From Flavobacteriales bacterium (GTDB lineage Bacteria > Bacteroidota > Bacteroidia > Flavobacteriales > UA16): a stretch of 6,031 nt of DNA. Where the stretch lies: positions 1-6,031 of the forward strand of contig JABISU010000231.1 in the NCBI GenBank assembly GCA_018700255.1, given 5' to 3'. Shown here piece after piece: positions 1-5,247 of the stretch. Every line of letters starts with the position of its first letter. The first letter of the stretch is position 1. A model generated the notes under the pieces. The model had not been told where the DNA came from. It ran no database searches and was given only the letters and a program-made list of their open reading frames with translations. Both the position numbers and the translations under genes were made by a program.

Positions 1-962
1 GCCCAGATTATGCAGGTGCGCACATTTATTATCCAACCAATGCTAGCGAGTCACTAAGCAGTATAGTTTTAGTTCCTGGCTTCATGAATTTTGAATCAAC
101 ACTTCAAAATTGGGGCCCTTTTTTAGCAGCTCACGGTATTGTAACTATGACTATTGGGGCTAATTACTTAACCGATTCCCCTACACAAAGAAAAGAAGCT
201 CTATTAGATGCCATTATTACTTTGAAAGCAGAGCAAACAAGAATAGGTTCGCCTCTTTACTACTCACTTGACATCAATAATTTTGCAGTAGGAGGTTTCT
301 CTATGGGCGGAGGCGGAGCACAACTAGCAGCAGTAAGTGATCCTACTATTAAGGCTATCATCGCACTGAACCCTTATCTTTCCAACGCTAGCGAAGCTGA
401 TCTAAACCACAACAGCCCAGTACTAATAACCTCTGGAGAACTAGATTTAATCGCTAGTCCAAGTCTGCATGCAAACGTACATTATGCTGTAACTCCAGAT
501 AGCACTCCAAAGCAACTATATGAAATTCAAAATGCCGGTCACGATCCTCTGATCGGGCCTAATGGTGGAAATGGAGAAGTCGGAATGAAAGTGCTCAGTT
601 GGCTACAAGCATTCTTGACAGACAATCATTGTTACTGTCCACCCATACTCACTGTACCTTCTACAGCATCAGGCTTCACCCATAATATAGTATGTGAAGA
701 CCTATTTATTCAGGGATGTACAGACTCAACATCTTGCAACTACAACCCTAGCGCAACAATAGACGACGGAAGTTGTGAATCACAATCCTGTGCATGCCCA
801 GGCGACCTCAATGGAGACTATGCTATTACAGTTGCTGATGTATTGTTAACTCTTTCTGAATTCGGGTGTATGACGAATTGCACCGCCGATATAAATGGAG
901 ATGGCTTCGTTAACGTAACTGACATTTTAGAATTGTTATCTATGTTCGGCACTGTATGTTAA
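1..962 (+). CDS. PETase-like secreted polyester hydrolase/esterase with C-terminal dockerin-like EF-hand pair (5' end missing)
   Basis: An alpha/beta-hydrolase predicted to cleave ester bonds outside the cell, in the dienelactone hydrolase/cutinase/PETase family. The frame is open from base 3, so the ATG at 84 is internal: the 27 residues before it (YYPTN, then VPGF) align with the strand and oxyanion loop upstream in known PETases. Numbering visible residues from base 3, the nucleophile elbow GFSMGGGG gives Ser100, the GELD motif gives Asp148 and NAGHD gives His180, with spacings close to those of Ideonella PETase. F27 and M101 fit the oxyanion hole, and Y125 sits where PETase has its mobile Trp. 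The catalytic domain ends near residue 212. A Cys-rich linker (238-258, GCTD to DDGSC) follows, then two EF-hand loops (D268-D279, D296-D307), each followed by a Leu-rich helix, as in type I dockerins. The signal peptide should lie upstream. No T9SS tail is visible. The true substrate cannot be read from sequence; another polyester, cutin or lipid ester is possible. Confidence 0.85.
   Translation, partial: PDYAGAHIYYPTNASESLSSIVLVPGFMNFESTLQNWGPFLAAHGIVTMTIGANYLTDSPTQRKEALLDAIITLKAEQTRIGSPLYYSLDINNFAVGGFSMGGGGAQLAAVSDPTIKAIIALNPYLSNASEADLNHNSPVLITSGELDLIASPSLHANVHYAVTPDSTPKQLYEIQNAGHDPLIGPNGGNGEVGMKVLSWLQAFLTDNHCYCPPILTVPSTASGFTHNIVCEDLFIQGCTDSTSCNYNPSATIDDGSCESQSCACPGDLNGDYAITVADVLLTLSEFGCMTNCTADINGDGFVNVTDILELLSMFGTVC
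714..959 (+). other. Cys-rich linker plus dockerin-like double EF-hand module
   Basis: This is the protein region after the hydrolase domain. It starts with the GCTDSTSCNYNP...DDGSC motif, a Cys-rich linker common in secreted proteins of marine Bacteroidota. Two repeats of about 23 residues follow, each with a DxNxDxxxxxxD calcium loop and a helix ending in FG. The first loop has Tyr where dockerins usually have Gly after the third ligand (NGDY instead of NGDG); the second is canonical (NGDG). Known dockerins bind cohesins in Clostridia, but in Bacteroidota the role of these pairs is not established, so a cohesin partner is inference only. Confidence 0.7.
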
Positions 963-1572: not shown

Positions 1573-1628
1573 TAAAGGTAGTTAAGAATGAACTTCATCT
1601 TAAAATATATTATAGCATGAGTAATCAA
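1573..1628 (-). promoter_or_regulatory. Candidate promoter region for the DUF4389 gene
   Basis: On the minus strand, TACCTTTA (1573-1580) matches the Bacteroidota -7 consensus TAnnTTTG except at the last base, but has no TTG at the right distance. A second option is TATATTTT (1602-1609) with TTG at 1626-1628 and a 16-base spacer, slightly short. Either would start transcription shortly before the ATG at 1551. This is motif matching in AT-rich DNA, so chance hits are likely. Confidence 0.25.
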
Positions 1629-1787
1629 TATTATATTCAGAACCTCAAGCACCTGTTCTATCGGTGCAACCACCTTGAAAGATAAATTCAATTTTAAGAT
1701 ATCTCTTTATTGTGTTAATTGATTGGATTCGATTGTTTCAACGTTAAATTTTAATTAGAATGACACAATTTAAAATATTATTACTTG

Positions 1788-1819
1788 TACCTTAGCTAGA
1801 TATTGTTATTTATACAATA
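1788..1819 (+). promoter_or_regulatory. Weak -7-like box and AT-rich hairpin upstream of the lectin gene
   Basis: TACCTTAG (1788-1795) differs from the Bacteroidota -7 box TAnnTTTG at one specified base, but no TTG lies at the -33 distance. Just after it, TATTGT (1801-1806) and ACAATA (1814-1819) form a perfect 6-bp inverted repeat around a 7-base spacer, ending 9 bases before the lectin start codon. It could be an operator half-site pair or a weak leader hairpin. Confidence 0.2.
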
Positions 1820-1828
1820 AGAGAGAGC

Positions 1829-4072
1829 ATGAAACTTAGATTAGTCATATATCTTTTTTTACTTCCCATGTTATTTCATGCCCAATCGTCTAATACTGTT
1901 GGAAATGCAACATCGATAGGAGATGATTGTTATTTAGTCACACCATCTCAAGATTGGCAAAACGGAGCGGTATGGTTTTCAGATCCGTTAAACTTGACAG
2001 AAGAATTTACGATTGATTTGAATATCAATTTTGGAATTTATGATAGTAATGGAGCAGATGGGATGGTTTTTGTCATGCAAACTGTAGGAACTAATCTATT
2101 AGGTGTTGCTGGAGGAGGTCTTGGATATGAAGGAATTATCCCCTCAATAGGTGTGGAAATGGACACTTGGCAAAACACAGATATGGGTGACCCTTTTCAA
2201 GATCATATCTCCATCATCTCTGATGGGAATGTAAATCATTCAGCATCTACGAATTTATTTGGACCAGTCCCAGCGAGTTCTTCAAATAGCAATATTGAAG
2301 ATGGAGAATTTCATAAGTTTCGACTTGACTGGATCCCTGATATGAATACCCTTGAGGTTTACTTTGATTGTGATTTAAGAATTTCTGTTGAAGTGGATAT
2401 TATTAACGATATTTTTGATGGAGTTACCCAGGTATATTGGGGTTTTACAGGCAGTACAGGAGGTTCTAATAATAATCAGAGTGTTTGTTTGAATGAGTTC
2501 ACTTTGGGACTCCCTGAAACGGAAACGATTTGCAATGGTGAGTCTATACAATTGGGTGTGAATGGAGGTGAAGGGTCGAGTTATTTATGGATCCCAAGTG
2601 AAGGTATCAATGATCCAACGGAACAATATCCAATATTCAATCCTTTGGTAAGTACTTACTATTCAGTTGAATATACTGATTACTGTGGCGAAACTCAATT
2701 TCAAAATGTGAATATAGACGTCACAGATTTTTCGATTGATATCCCCTCTGAAATTGACCTTTGCAACAATGAAGAGTTTTTATTTGAACCTGATGTTCCT
2801 GAGGGTTCTGTTTTGCTTTGGAATAATGAAATCGAGTCACCTACGTTTACCGCTGACGAAGAAGGCCCAGTAGAAGTTTATGGGGAGTATTTGGGTTGTT
2901 CTGATGTTTCGACATCTATGGTAACAGTGACAGATTTTTCGATTGATATTGCCCCTGAAATTAATCTTTGCAATAATGAAGAGTTTTTATTTGAACCTGA
3001 TGTTCCTGAGGGTTCTGTTTTGCTTTGGAACAATGAAATCGAGTCACATACGTTTACCGTTGACGAAGAAGGCTTTGTAGTAGTTTATGGTGAGTATTTG
3101 GGTTGTTCCGATGTTTCTTCATCTATGGTTAATATGACATTTTTTTCGGTTGATATCGCCTCTGAAATTGACCTTTGCAACAATGAAGAGTTTTTATTTG
3201 AACCTGATGTTCCTGAGGGTTCTGTTTTGCTTTGGAACAATGAAATCGAGTCACCTACGTTTACCGTTGACGAAGAAGGCTCAGTAGAAGTTTATGGGGA
3301 GTATTTGGGTTGTTCCGATGTTTCGTCATCTATGGTTACTGTTAATCCATTGCCAGACCCTTTGTACCCTCCAGAAGATGTTATTGAAACTTGTGAAAAT
3401 GAGGTGGTTGAGATCAATGCTTATTGTGATGGGTGCGTTTATGATTGGGGAGGCTATGATGAGCCGATATATTATTCAGTTAATGAAGCTGGCGTTCATG
3501 CTGTTGAAATAACAAATGAATATGGATGTACATCCTTGTTTAGTTATACCATTCTTGTCACCTCTTCTCCTCAAATCACCTTAGATAGTTTATATCAGTT
3601 TTGTAAAGGAACTGCTGGTGTTTTATCAGCAGGATTGAATTCTACAAATATGAATGTTATTTGGAATACGAATGACACAACTCCATTGATTAATGTAACA
3701 GAAACCGGCGAGTATTCAGTCTATGCGTCAAACCTATGTGGTTCAGATGAAACATCAACATTCGTTTCTTTTGACGAGTGTTCATGCGACATTTGGGCTC
3801 CAACTGCATTTACTCCTGATAATGATGGAGTAAATGATGTATTTGTTCCGATAATTAGATGTGATGCAGTGTCATATCAGTTAAATATTTTTAACCGATG
3901 GGGTGAAGTGGTTTTTTATTCTACAAATCAAGGAGAGATATGGACTGGATGTGTTCACAATGGTGATTATTTTTCGAGGGATGGAGTCTATGCTTGGGAA
4001 GTATTCTATTCTTCACAAAGTGACCAATTAATATTGCATCAAGCAAGAGGTCATGTAATATTGATTAGATAA
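1829..4072 (+). CDS. Secreted L-type lectin / Ig-like repeat adhesin with T9SS type B sorting domain
   Basis: A 747-aa cell-surface protein predicted to bind glycans. A signal peptide (1-18) ends in FHA before QS. Residues about 28-228 form a bacterial L-type (legume-like) lectin: ADG (Asp77) and the GGGLGY loop (95-100) match sugar-contact positions, and VEMDTW.N....D...DH supplies the expected metal ligands E110, D112, N116, D121 and H126. An Ig/PKD-like domain follows (about 232-298), then three near-identical 69-residue repeats (300-368, 369-437, 438-506), each with two Cys that may pair, then two more diverged Ig-like domains (about 507-650). From C653 the gliding-motility-associated type B C-terminal domain begins (AFTPDNDGVND, then FNRWGE, and a DGVYAW motif), which sends proteins out through T9SS, often onto the surface with PorP/SprF-type partners. 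The ATG at 1829 is chosen because the signal peptide begins there; a purine-rich stretch precedes it. Adhesion to algal or particle polysaccharide is inferred from the architecture. Confidence 0.88.
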   Translation: MKLRLVIYLFLLPMLFHAQSSNTVGNATSIGDDCYLVTPSQDWQNGAVWFSDPLNLTEEFTIDLNINFGIYDSNGADGMVFVMQTVGTNLLGVAGGGLGYEGIIPSIGVEMDTWQNTDMGDPFQDHISIISDGNVNHSASTNLFGPVPASSSNSNIEDGEFHKFRLDWIPDMNTLEVYFDCDLRISVEVDIINDIFDGVTQVYWGFTGSTGGSNNNQSVCLNEFTLGLPETETICNGESIQLGVNGGEGSSYLWIPSEGINDPTEQYPIFNPLVSTYYSVEYTDYCGETQFQNVNIDVTDFSIDIPSEIDLCNNEEFLFEPDVPEGSVLLWNNEIESPTFTADEEGPVEVYGEYLGCSDVSTSMVTVTDFSIDIAPEINLCNNEEFLFEPDVPEGSVLLWNNEIESHTFTVDEEGFVVVYGEYLGCSDVSSSMVNMTFFSVDIASEIDLCNNEEFLFEPDVPEGSVLLWNNEIESPTFTVDEEGSVEVYGEYLGCSDVSSSMVTVNPLPDPLYPPEDVIETCENEVVEINAYCDGCVYDWGGYDEPIYYSVNEAGVHAVEITNEYGCTSLFSYTILVTSSPQITLDSLYQFCKGTAGVLSAGLNSTNMNVIWNTNDTTPLINVTETGEYSVYASNLCGSDETSTFVSFDECSCDIWAPTAFTPDNDGVNDVFVPIIRCDAVSYQLNIFNRWGEVVFYSTNQGEIWTGCVHNGDYFSRDGVYAWEVFYSSQSDQLILHQARGHVILIR
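2726..3346 (+). repeat. Three in-frame 207-bp tandem repeats coding for 69-aa Ig-like units
   Basis: Units at 2726-2932, 2933-3139 and 3140-3346 have an exact 207-base period. They share a core of more than 50 identical bases in all three, coding EEFLFEPDVPEGSV and the residues after it. Copies 1 and 3 agree at positions where copy 2 differs (SPTFT against SHTFT, VEVYG against VVVYG), while copies 2 and 3 agree elsewhere (VSSS, and GTT against GCT). This mosaic pattern points to recent duplication with recombination or gene conversion between units. Confidence 0.95.
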
Positions 4073-4184: not shown

Positions 4185-4268
4185 TAGTCTTAAGCTTGAG
4201 GATATGCCGAGGCTATAAACCTGAATAGCTGTATCTTGTAAGTCTGAATTATAGACGATGAGATATTT
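4185..4268 (+). repeat. Leader repeat copy A, ending in the first codons of the DUF1566 gene
   Basis: This segment begins TAGTCTTAAGCTTGAGG and runs through the ATG at 4258 to ATGAGATATTT. Its first 35 bases match copy B (5028-5062) at 30 positions by eye. The distance from repeat start to ATG is 73 bases here and 72 in copy B, and the first 11 bases from the ATG are identical. The middle part is diverged. It is the 5' leader of the gene, so it may carry the promoter, although no clear TAnnTTTG box is visible. Confidence 0.75.
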
Positions 4269-5019
4269 AGTTACTTCTTTGTTATGTGTCTTTACGCTGT
4301 CTCTTACAGCTCAGTCTGTAATTACTTATCCTTACAATCCAGACTCTGATGGAGATGCATTTATATCAACGACAGATCTGATTGAAACTCTAGCTTCCTT
4401 CGGTTTAGGATTCACTCCAGATGAGATTCAAATTGATGGAGTTGGTTTAGCTGAGGCTATCAGTCTACTTGAGACTACAGTCTTTGAACTACAACAACAA
4501 GTTTATCAACTATTATCTCTTGGAGATTACTATCAAGGAGGTTACATTTTTTATCTTGATGAGTCAGGTCAACACGGTTTGGTTGCTGCTCCCGACAATG
4601 TAGGTGGGGAAATTGAAGACATTTATGGCAATTCTGGATTTCCCTGGGGGTGTGTTGGAATGGTGATTAATAGTGTTGGATTAGACTCTAGTGGAGCGAT
4701 TGGCACTGGACTCCAAAATACATTAGACATTGTCAATGCATGTACAGAAACCCCTATTGCTGCTAGCGTTTGTTTAGAATATGAAAATGATGGTTATACA
4801 GATTGGTATTTGCCTTCATTTCATGAAATGAACCTAATGTGCGAAGTAATTGGAATGAACTCTATTTATTTAGATTTTGCGCTTTTTGATGATGATGGTT
4901 ATTGGACTTCTAATCAAAACTATAGCGATTGGGCTTGGTATTATAATTTTGATCTCTGTTCGCCATACACTAATGTCAGAACGAATTTAAAAAGAGCCCG
5001 CGCCATTCGTTCCTTTTAA
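4258..5019 (+). CDS. Secreted DUF1566 (Lcl C-terminal) domain protein with N-terminal EF-hand half
   Basis: A 253-aa exported protein of unknown function. A signal peptide (1-18, ending LTA before QS) leads into a single dockerin-like EF-hand half (about 28-49: DSDGDAFISTTD, then a helix ending FG). A short helical, coiled-coil-like stretch (62-88) with a Gln-rich core follows, then the domain from G89 to the C-terminus. That domain is the DUF1566 type, known from the collagen-binding Lcl protein and from many Bacteroidota surface proteins: YYQGGYIFYLD, a W-G-C motif (130-132), GTG..NT.DIV, YTDWYLPS..E, YWTS and a closing RAIRSF. Other family members tend to sit in tandem paralogue sets; here a second leader lies directly after the stop. 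No T9SS tail is seen, so it may be periplasmic or exported by another route. Binding of a host or matrix ligand is possible but not shown. Confidence 0.8.
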   Translation: MRYLVTSLLCVFTLSLTAQSVITYPYNPDSDGDAFISTTDLIETLASFGLGFTPDEIQIDGVGLAEAISLLETTVFELQQQVYQLLSLGDYYQGGYIFYLDESGQHGLVAAPDNVGGEIEDIYGNSGFPWGCVGMVINSVGLDSSGAIGTGLQNTLDIVNACTETPIAASVCLEYENDGYTDWYLPSFHEMNLMCEVIGMNSIYLDFALFDDDGYWTSNQNYSDWAWYYNFDLCSPYTNVRTNLKRARAIRSF

Positions 5020-5172: not shown

Positions 5173-5247
5173 TGGAGCGAAAAACGAGATTCGAACTCGC
5201 GACCCCAACCTTGGCAAGGTTATGCTCTACCACTGAGCTACTTTCGC
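5173..5247 (-). tRNA. tRNA-Gly (anticodon GCC)
   Basis: A complete 75-base cloverleaf with encoded CCA (5173-5175). The acceptor stem GCGAAAG pairs with TTTTCGC (one G-T), with T as discriminator. The D arm is GCTC-AGTGGTA-GAGC, the anticodon arm TAACC-TTGCCAA-GGTTG with anticodon GCC (5213-5215 on the plus strand), the variable loop GGGTC, and the T arm GCGAG-TTCGAAT-CTCGT. It decodes GGC and GGU glycine codons. It is transcribed away from the DUF4290 gene, has its own promoter and terminator, and appears to be monocistronic. Confidence 0.97.

Follow-up and report, generated by a model that had tools for sequence, protein, structure and literature searches.

The window, by which we mean the whole 6,031-nucleotide stretch of flavobacterial DNA that was analyzed, opens inside a gene. 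A reading frame on the plus strand (positions 3 to 962) is open at its 5' end at the window start and closes with a stop codon at 960 to 962, and nucleotides 3 to 959 encode a hydrolase of the PETase family from which only the last 319 residues lie in the window. The features that we placed on this frame and on the rest of the window are as follows.

3 to 962, plus strand: PETase-family hydrolase with a GC-type dockerin tail; open frame, 319 amino acids plus stop.
9 to 662, plus strand: catalytic alpha/beta-hydrolase domain, residues 3 to 220 (PF12740, AlphaFold, Foldseek).
300 to 302, plus strand: catalytic serine S100 in G-F-S-M-G, invariant in 32 sequences and aligned with that of PET30.
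444 to 446, plus strand: catalytic aspartate D148, invariant in 32 sequences and aligned with that of PET30.
540 to 542, plus strand: catalytic histidine H180, invariant in 32 sequences and aligned with that of PET30.
714 to 776, plus strand: Cys-rich linker repeat GCTDSTSCNYNPSATIDDGSC, from the sequence.
783 to 959, plus strand: GC-type dockerin-like C-terminal tail, residues 261 to 319 (profile, NF041540, match to 2y3n).
804 to 839, plus strand: EF-type loop 1 (D-x-N-x-D-x6-D), residues 268 to 279, DLNGDYAITVAD, from the sequence.
888 to 923, plus strand: EF-type loop 2, residues 296 to 307, DINGDGFVNVTD, from the sequence.
957 to 959, plus strand: terminal cysteine C319, the last residue, found without exception in the 36 aligned tails.
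1829 to 4072: L-type lectin/CHU_C protein of 747 amino acids, T9SS type B.
2732 to 3338: a tandem array in the lectin/CHU_C protein of three 69-residue repeats that are nearly identical to one another.
4258 to 5019, plus strand: Lcl_C-like protein of 253 amino acids, with a loop just after its signal peptide.
4342 to 4407, plus strand: single dockerin-like loop near the N terminus of the Lcl_C-like protein; a weak match to our tail profile (12.0 bits; i-E, 0.08).
5173 to 5247, minus strand: tRNA-Gly (GCC), followed by a DUF4290 protein that runs off the window.

The initial annotation had read the catalytic part of the first protein as a PETase-like hydrolase, and our searches agree with it. 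The PETase model PF12740 matched residues 3 to 220 at an E value of 1.2e-43 and 149.9 bits, above its cutoff of 28, and the protein has the motifs YYPTN, VPGF, GFSMGGGG, GELDLIA, and NAGHDPL, with both the Ser-Asp-His triad and G-x-S-x-G present. An AlphaFold model of the 319 residues (mean pLDDT, 85.9) retrieved PET30 of Kaistella jeonii (7pzj) as the first-ranked Foldseek match at 53% identity and an rmsd of 1.5 Å, and entries for the Ideonella PETase stood in the same list at about 30% identity. The closest solved relative by sequence was also 7pzj (228.8 bits; runner-up, 130.7 bits), and a K. jeonii protein in locus L066, which we took to be PET30, was 48% identical to the window protein over 259 columns. 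Family, fold, and triad are common to the window protein, PET30, and PET27 of Aequorivita. The binding residues of PET30 include F80, M154, Y178, and W152, according to the excerpted text of PMC8767016, and the aligned residues of the window protein are F, M, Y, and F; the first three agree, and the tryptophan before the catalytic serine is replaced by phenylalanine. This replacement is not unique among the 120 listed homologues, with G-F-S-M-G in 21, G-W-S-M-G in 56, and G-F-S-K-G in 39. As part of the explanation that we favor below, the window protein would be a secreted PETase-family enzyme, most like PET30, with a predicted esterase activity.

Full-length relatives provided a view of the missing 5' end. 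A search of a large protein set with the window protein gave 754 relatives, 120 of them listed. Nine relatives (P0001 to P0009; 371 to 372 amino acids) are 76 to 93% identical across the whole query, start with a hydrophobic, signal-peptide-like stretch, and end in a tail like that in the window, and no T9SS domain occurs among their precomputed Pfam matches. A syntenic, full-length PETase copy of 372 amino acids in a Flavobacteriales MAG (L001; UBA974) is 93% identical with a signal-peptide-like start, and its following neighbors are those of the window, a DUF4389 protein (97%) and then the lectin/type B protein. From these nine relatives and the syntenic copy, we infer that a T9SS domain is very probably absent from the full window gene, as had been supposed from the window alone.

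The Cys-rich linker and two EF-hand loops that had been reported after the catalytic domain were both recovered, with each loop being 12 residues long. The same type of linker repeat also lies ahead of many GC-dockerin tails and ahead of the T9SS tails of the PETase relatives P0010 to P0012. No T9SS model for a type A, B, or C CTD (Pfam, NCBIfam) matched the window protein at E values up to 0.1. The earlier proposal of a dockerin-like tail in the place where PET27 and PET30 have a PorC T9SS tail was right. A type C CTD had been a candidate for the identity of the tail and was rejected for want of any match to the window protein. NF041540, the NCBIfam model named "GC-type dockerin," aligned to the tail over its whole length (model positions 1 to 67 of 67, the last residue being Cys), at 26.2 bits and thus below its cutoff of 29, and Dockerin_1 (PF00404) scored 20.5 bits, below its gathering score of 22.9. 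A tail profile that we made from 47 tails borne by proteins other than PETases matched the window tail at 89.8 bits and matched none of 1,000 shuffles of the window protein at an E value of <1, so the likeness is not due to chance.

An alignment of the window tail with 35 tails from genomes G002 and G003, with single-loop forms left out, has seven invariant columns: D1 and D12 of both loops, one Leu, one Phe, and the terminal Cys. A profile of this 36-row alignment retrieved the cellulosomal dockerin 2y3n from the PDB sequences (2.4e-8). All 50 of the C-terminal tails that we fetched have a cysteine in the last five residues, and in 30 it is the very last residue. The four-cysteine pattern Cys-loop-Cys, Cys-loop-Cys is present in 41 of the 50; the other nine comprise three forms with a single loop, a fragment, three tails without the inner cysteines, and two without the first. 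The cysteines may form disulfides, and the loops may bind calcium. Helices after the loops were predicted at moderate to low confidence, and the tail-only model had a pLDDT of 60.

We searched for NF041540 in eight genomes reached via the loci. Five of these, each holding a close tailed relative of the PETase (L001, L002, L003, L005, and L006), had 13, 16, 24, 19, and 16 matches, with the strongest copies at 30 to 39 bits, and the other three (those of L008, Brumimicrobium L032, and Kaistella L066) had none. Many of the 88 matches fall below the curated cutoff, as does the window copy. We fetched 51 of the 88 copies (13 of 13 from G001, 14 of 16 from G002, and 24 of 24 from G003), and 50 of these end 0 to 4 residues from the C terminus. 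The C-terminal position is not absolute, given the one internal copy among the 51 and the N-terminal loop in the window neighbor. By a crude hydrophobicity rule, a signal-like start is present in 47 of 49 tagged proteins, a count that leaves out one fragment and the internal copy. When Pfam was run on 20 of the 24 tagged proteins of G003, 18 matched at least one family at E values up to 0.001, some of them below the cutoff. The cargo includes endonuclease I, a PAD_porph deiminase, a trypsin-like protein, two reprolysins, a BD-FAE esterase, a PHB esterase, a lysyl oxidase, an arylsulfotransferase, and FG-GAP, plastocyanin, and other proteins, and Por_Secre_tail matched none of the 20. The tailed genes can lie in a row with the PETase last, as with two genes in L001 (5305 to 7480) and three in L002 (2270 to 7304). 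The frame upstream of the PETase in L001 has a stop inside its tail and a long Asp run.

Across 299 genomes, an even draw of one order in which kinship makes the genomes nonindependent, NF041540 matched in 95, nine of them with a single match; the tag counts are lower bounds, with at most 19 candidates scored per genome. The tail region of P0001 retrieved 12 proteins from the large protein set in a search whose reach is restricted by its word-based start. Similar tails were present in P0122 and P0123, which we guess from their appearance to be planctomycete-like. Planctomycetes are not known to have a T9SS, and so the tail module may extend beyond bacteria that have this system. On the sequence evidence, the tail is a recurrent, genome-wide C-terminal tag and not peculiar to the window enzyme.

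Other genes around the PETase have related features. A gene beside the PETase in L003 (7094 to 7858) has an N-terminal loop similar to that of the Lcl_C-like protein (i-E, 2.1e-4), and in L005 and L007 fuller internal GC-dockerins precede Lcl-like regions. The lectin/CHU_C orthologue in L001 has 885 amino acids, against 747 in the window, so the repeat number in this protein seems to vary. A nearly identical signal peptide (MRYLV/MRYLL...) is found on different genes, at 4258 in the window, at 6365, 11781, and 12608 in L001, and at 6192, 8138, and 9617 in L002; with this common start on different genes of the locus, both ends of the proteins look shuffled.

The PETases themselves carry both kinds of tail. 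Four relatives (P0010 to P0013) are 75 to 76% identical to the window protein in the catalytic part and carry PF18962. We built a catalytic-domain tree of 55 rows, consisting of the window, three loci, and 51 sequences that we selected out of the 120 homologues listed. The window clade has ten tagged rows with a support of 100/97, its nearest neighbors are the T9SS-tailed P0010 to P0012, and four changes of tail label are required on the tree. That tails were exchanged is surer than how often this happened, since two tagged rows, P0093 and P0112, have long branches and cysteines are missing from the tail of P0093. A Cys-rich GCTD linker ahead of the tail is common to tagged and T9SS-tailed PETases, and we suggest that recombination within the linker repeats could swap tails. 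A hydrolase downstream of the tagged PETase in L002 (9617 to 10747) ends in a T9SS tail that is 75 to 77% identical to the tails of P0010 to P0012 over 73 residues, whereas outside the tail it is just 24 to 27% identical to them over about 240 residues, which argues that tails move between genes as cassettes. Other endings occur in the family as well. Relatives P0022 to P0030 and P0040 end in a short ...DGTVEKKIIIE-type tail that by eye resembles a shortened T9SS type A domain, and their precomputed Pfam matches do not include PF18962. In L004, a second PETase paralogue (1611 to 2309, minus strand), about 50% identical to the tagged one and placed tail to tail with it, stops right after the catalytic domain and is tail-less.

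Endonuclease I and the PAD-type deiminases also occur with and without the tag. We searched the 299 genomes with the endonuclease I of G003 and took the 30 best loci (L150 to L179) together with loci hand-chosen from further places (L180 to L199 and L200 to L219). The first 50 loci gave 48 C-terminally complete proteins, and 46 of the 48 end in the tag; the two untagged ones come from G026 and G015, the only genomes of those 50 without tag matches. None of the 20 more distant endonuclease I proteins ends in the tag, and a lone weak tag match was found in one of their source genomes, G293. At E values up to 0.01, eight untagged proteins match the NCBIfam family for surface endonucleases that depend on the T9SS. 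For the deiminases, 50 loci were taken (L220 to L249 from the search and L250 to L269 hand-chosen), and 43 of the 50 proteins could be read to their ends, with seven tagged and 36 untagged; for the other seven, the fetched stretch ends before the protein does, in two cases inside a tag. All 11 readable deiminases from tag-free genomes are untagged. Since 25 of the 32 read to the end in tag-bearing genomes also lack the tag, the switch is made gene by gene. Four genomes (G003, G005, G197, and G182) each have one tagged paralogue (NF041540, 37 to 39 bits; cutoff, 29) and one T9SS type A paralogue (TIGR04183, 26 to 29 bits; cutoff, 23), which are 51 to 59% identical within the pairs. G052 probably also holds both kinds, with the tagged copy cut by the fetched stretch.

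With independent curated models, we scanned the last 130 residues of the 111 endonuclease and deiminase proteins that were read to their ends. Among the 58 untagged proteins, 53 match TIGR04183 and 47 match PF18962, with five lacking a TIGR04183 match. Among the 53 tagged proteins, 33 match NF041540 at E values up to 0.01 and 16 match Dockerin_1, and the tagged C termini without an NF041540 match were assigned by our own tail profile. No T9SS model (NCBIfam, Pfam; E values up to 0.01) matched any of the 53 tagged C termini. Judged from their sequences, PETases, endonuclease I, and PAD-type deiminases are three families in which the tag is found where a T9SS type A domain would otherwise be.

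The explanation that we favor, and consider modestly probable, is that the window gene encodes a PETase whose T9SS domain was replaced by a GC-type dockerin, which this lineage uses genome-wide as an alternative C-terminal tag that targets or anchors secreted enzymes. We observed the C-terminal position of the tag, its presence on unrelated proteins with signal-like starts, the absence of a T9SS domain from these proteins, the replacement in three families, and both kinds of tail in one genome. A Sec signal peptide would take the enzyme to the periplasm, and the tail would fold as two EF-type loops with cysteines bracketing each half. A receptor at the outer membrane, the surface, or the matrix, other than a classical cohesin, would recognize the tail, and the tagged enzyme would thereby reach a place or fate unlike that of its T9SS type A counterparts. 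The outer-membrane passage of the tagged enzyme and the receptor are both steps that we infer.

Anchoring to a surface scaffold had been raised in the initial annotation, and for a cohesin scaffold this found no support. Cohesin (PF00963) was found at E values up to 0.01 in none of the eight close or comparison genomes. In the 299 genomes, 23 have a cohesin match, distributed as 7 of the 95 tail-bearing genomes (7.3 expected) and 16 of the 204 tag-free genomes (Fisher P = 1.0), and of the 78 genomes in which at least five tags were counted, three have one. We rejected a cellulosome with a cohesin scaffold on these results from related genomes. A version in which the tails dock on cohesins too divergent for PF00963, perhaps on a T9SS-anchored scaffold, would fit the retrieval of 2y3n by the tail profile, and the excerpted text of PMC8542988 offers a parallel in Cloacimonadota, where enzymes with dockerins were inferred for "Ca. 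Stygibacter," together with a cohesin scaffold that has a CTD; a planctosome has likewise been described in Planctomycetes (excerpts of PMC6461901). The tail shares with type I cellulosomal dockerins two EF-type loops with D1, N/D3, D5, and D12 and, at moderate to low confidence, helices predicted after them, but it differs from them in its terminal and bracketing cysteines and in a cargo that is mostly not glycoside hydrolases, and the cohesin counts stand against even this version, which we hold to be very improbable. The same failure to find a cohesin partner in the eight or the 299 genomes, the calcium-type loops with paired cysteines, the frequency of the four-Cys pattern, and the one internal copy would all suit a module that binds nothing and acts as a cap, braced by calcium and disulfides, that guards secreted enzymes against extracellular proteolysis or unfolding. 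We think this unlikely, as it leaves unexplained why the tag never occurred here alongside a T9SS domain, why it replaces that domain in three families, and why deiminase paralogues of the same genome differ in the tag.

The T9SS might instead read the tail directly, through PorV or a PorP/SprF-like shuttle, as a further class of CTD beside A, B, and C. The tail does share the position of these CTDs, on kinds of cargo whose homologues carry T9SS domains, and there is already diversity among the known CTD classes (PMC10202324 and PMC12618676, in excerpts). In each of the eight genomes, SprA was matched and PF18962 had at least 31 matches, with 46, 58, 65, 58, and 62 in the five tag-bearing close genomes. 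However, no T9SS model matches the tail, and similar tails are present in the proteins that look planctomycete-like. Type A CTDs are beta-sandwiches in the excerpted text of PMC12618676, whereas the tail is EF-hand-like and predicted, at low confidence, to be helical. An extra PorV-like shuttle in tag-bearing genomes was rejected, as the PorV family was not expanded in the six genomes compared: with at most seven candidates scored per genome, G001 to G005 each have three PorV_fam matches versus five in G007. Neither this comparison nor the cohesin searches yielded a receptor for the tail. We give this direct reading by the T9SS a low probability. A bolder reading is that roughly one in three of the genomes sampled from this order run a second, T9SS-independent address system for secreted enzymes, with a calcium-dependent, Cys-braced C-terminal tag, until now classed as a dockerin, and a noncohesin receptor, in which tags are swapped with T9SS domains, perhaps via the shared linker repeats; we regard this reading as tentative and rather doubtful.

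For protein export and attachment to the surface in Bacteroidota, the C-terminal tags known so far are mainly T9SS CTDs. The name "GC-type dockerin" was not found in the literature that we searched, and neither a dockerin tag beside the T9SS nor a natural dockerin-tailed PETase appeared in the titles and abstract openings of that literature. PET93 and PET94 (Maribacter and Arenibacter) are flavobacterial PET-active hydrolases that, like the window protein, have no PorC, but unlike it they are dienelactone hydrolases outside the PET27/PET30 cluster (excerpts of PMC13188925); the word dockerin is absent from the main text of that paper. If the explanation that we favor is true, a second tag that replaces T9SS CTDs on homologous enzymes, while the genomes retain the T9SS, would alter the prediction of flavobacterial secretomes. 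Standard annotation can miss the tag, as with the copies below the curated cutoff, and PETase searches filtered on PorC would overlook the window clade.
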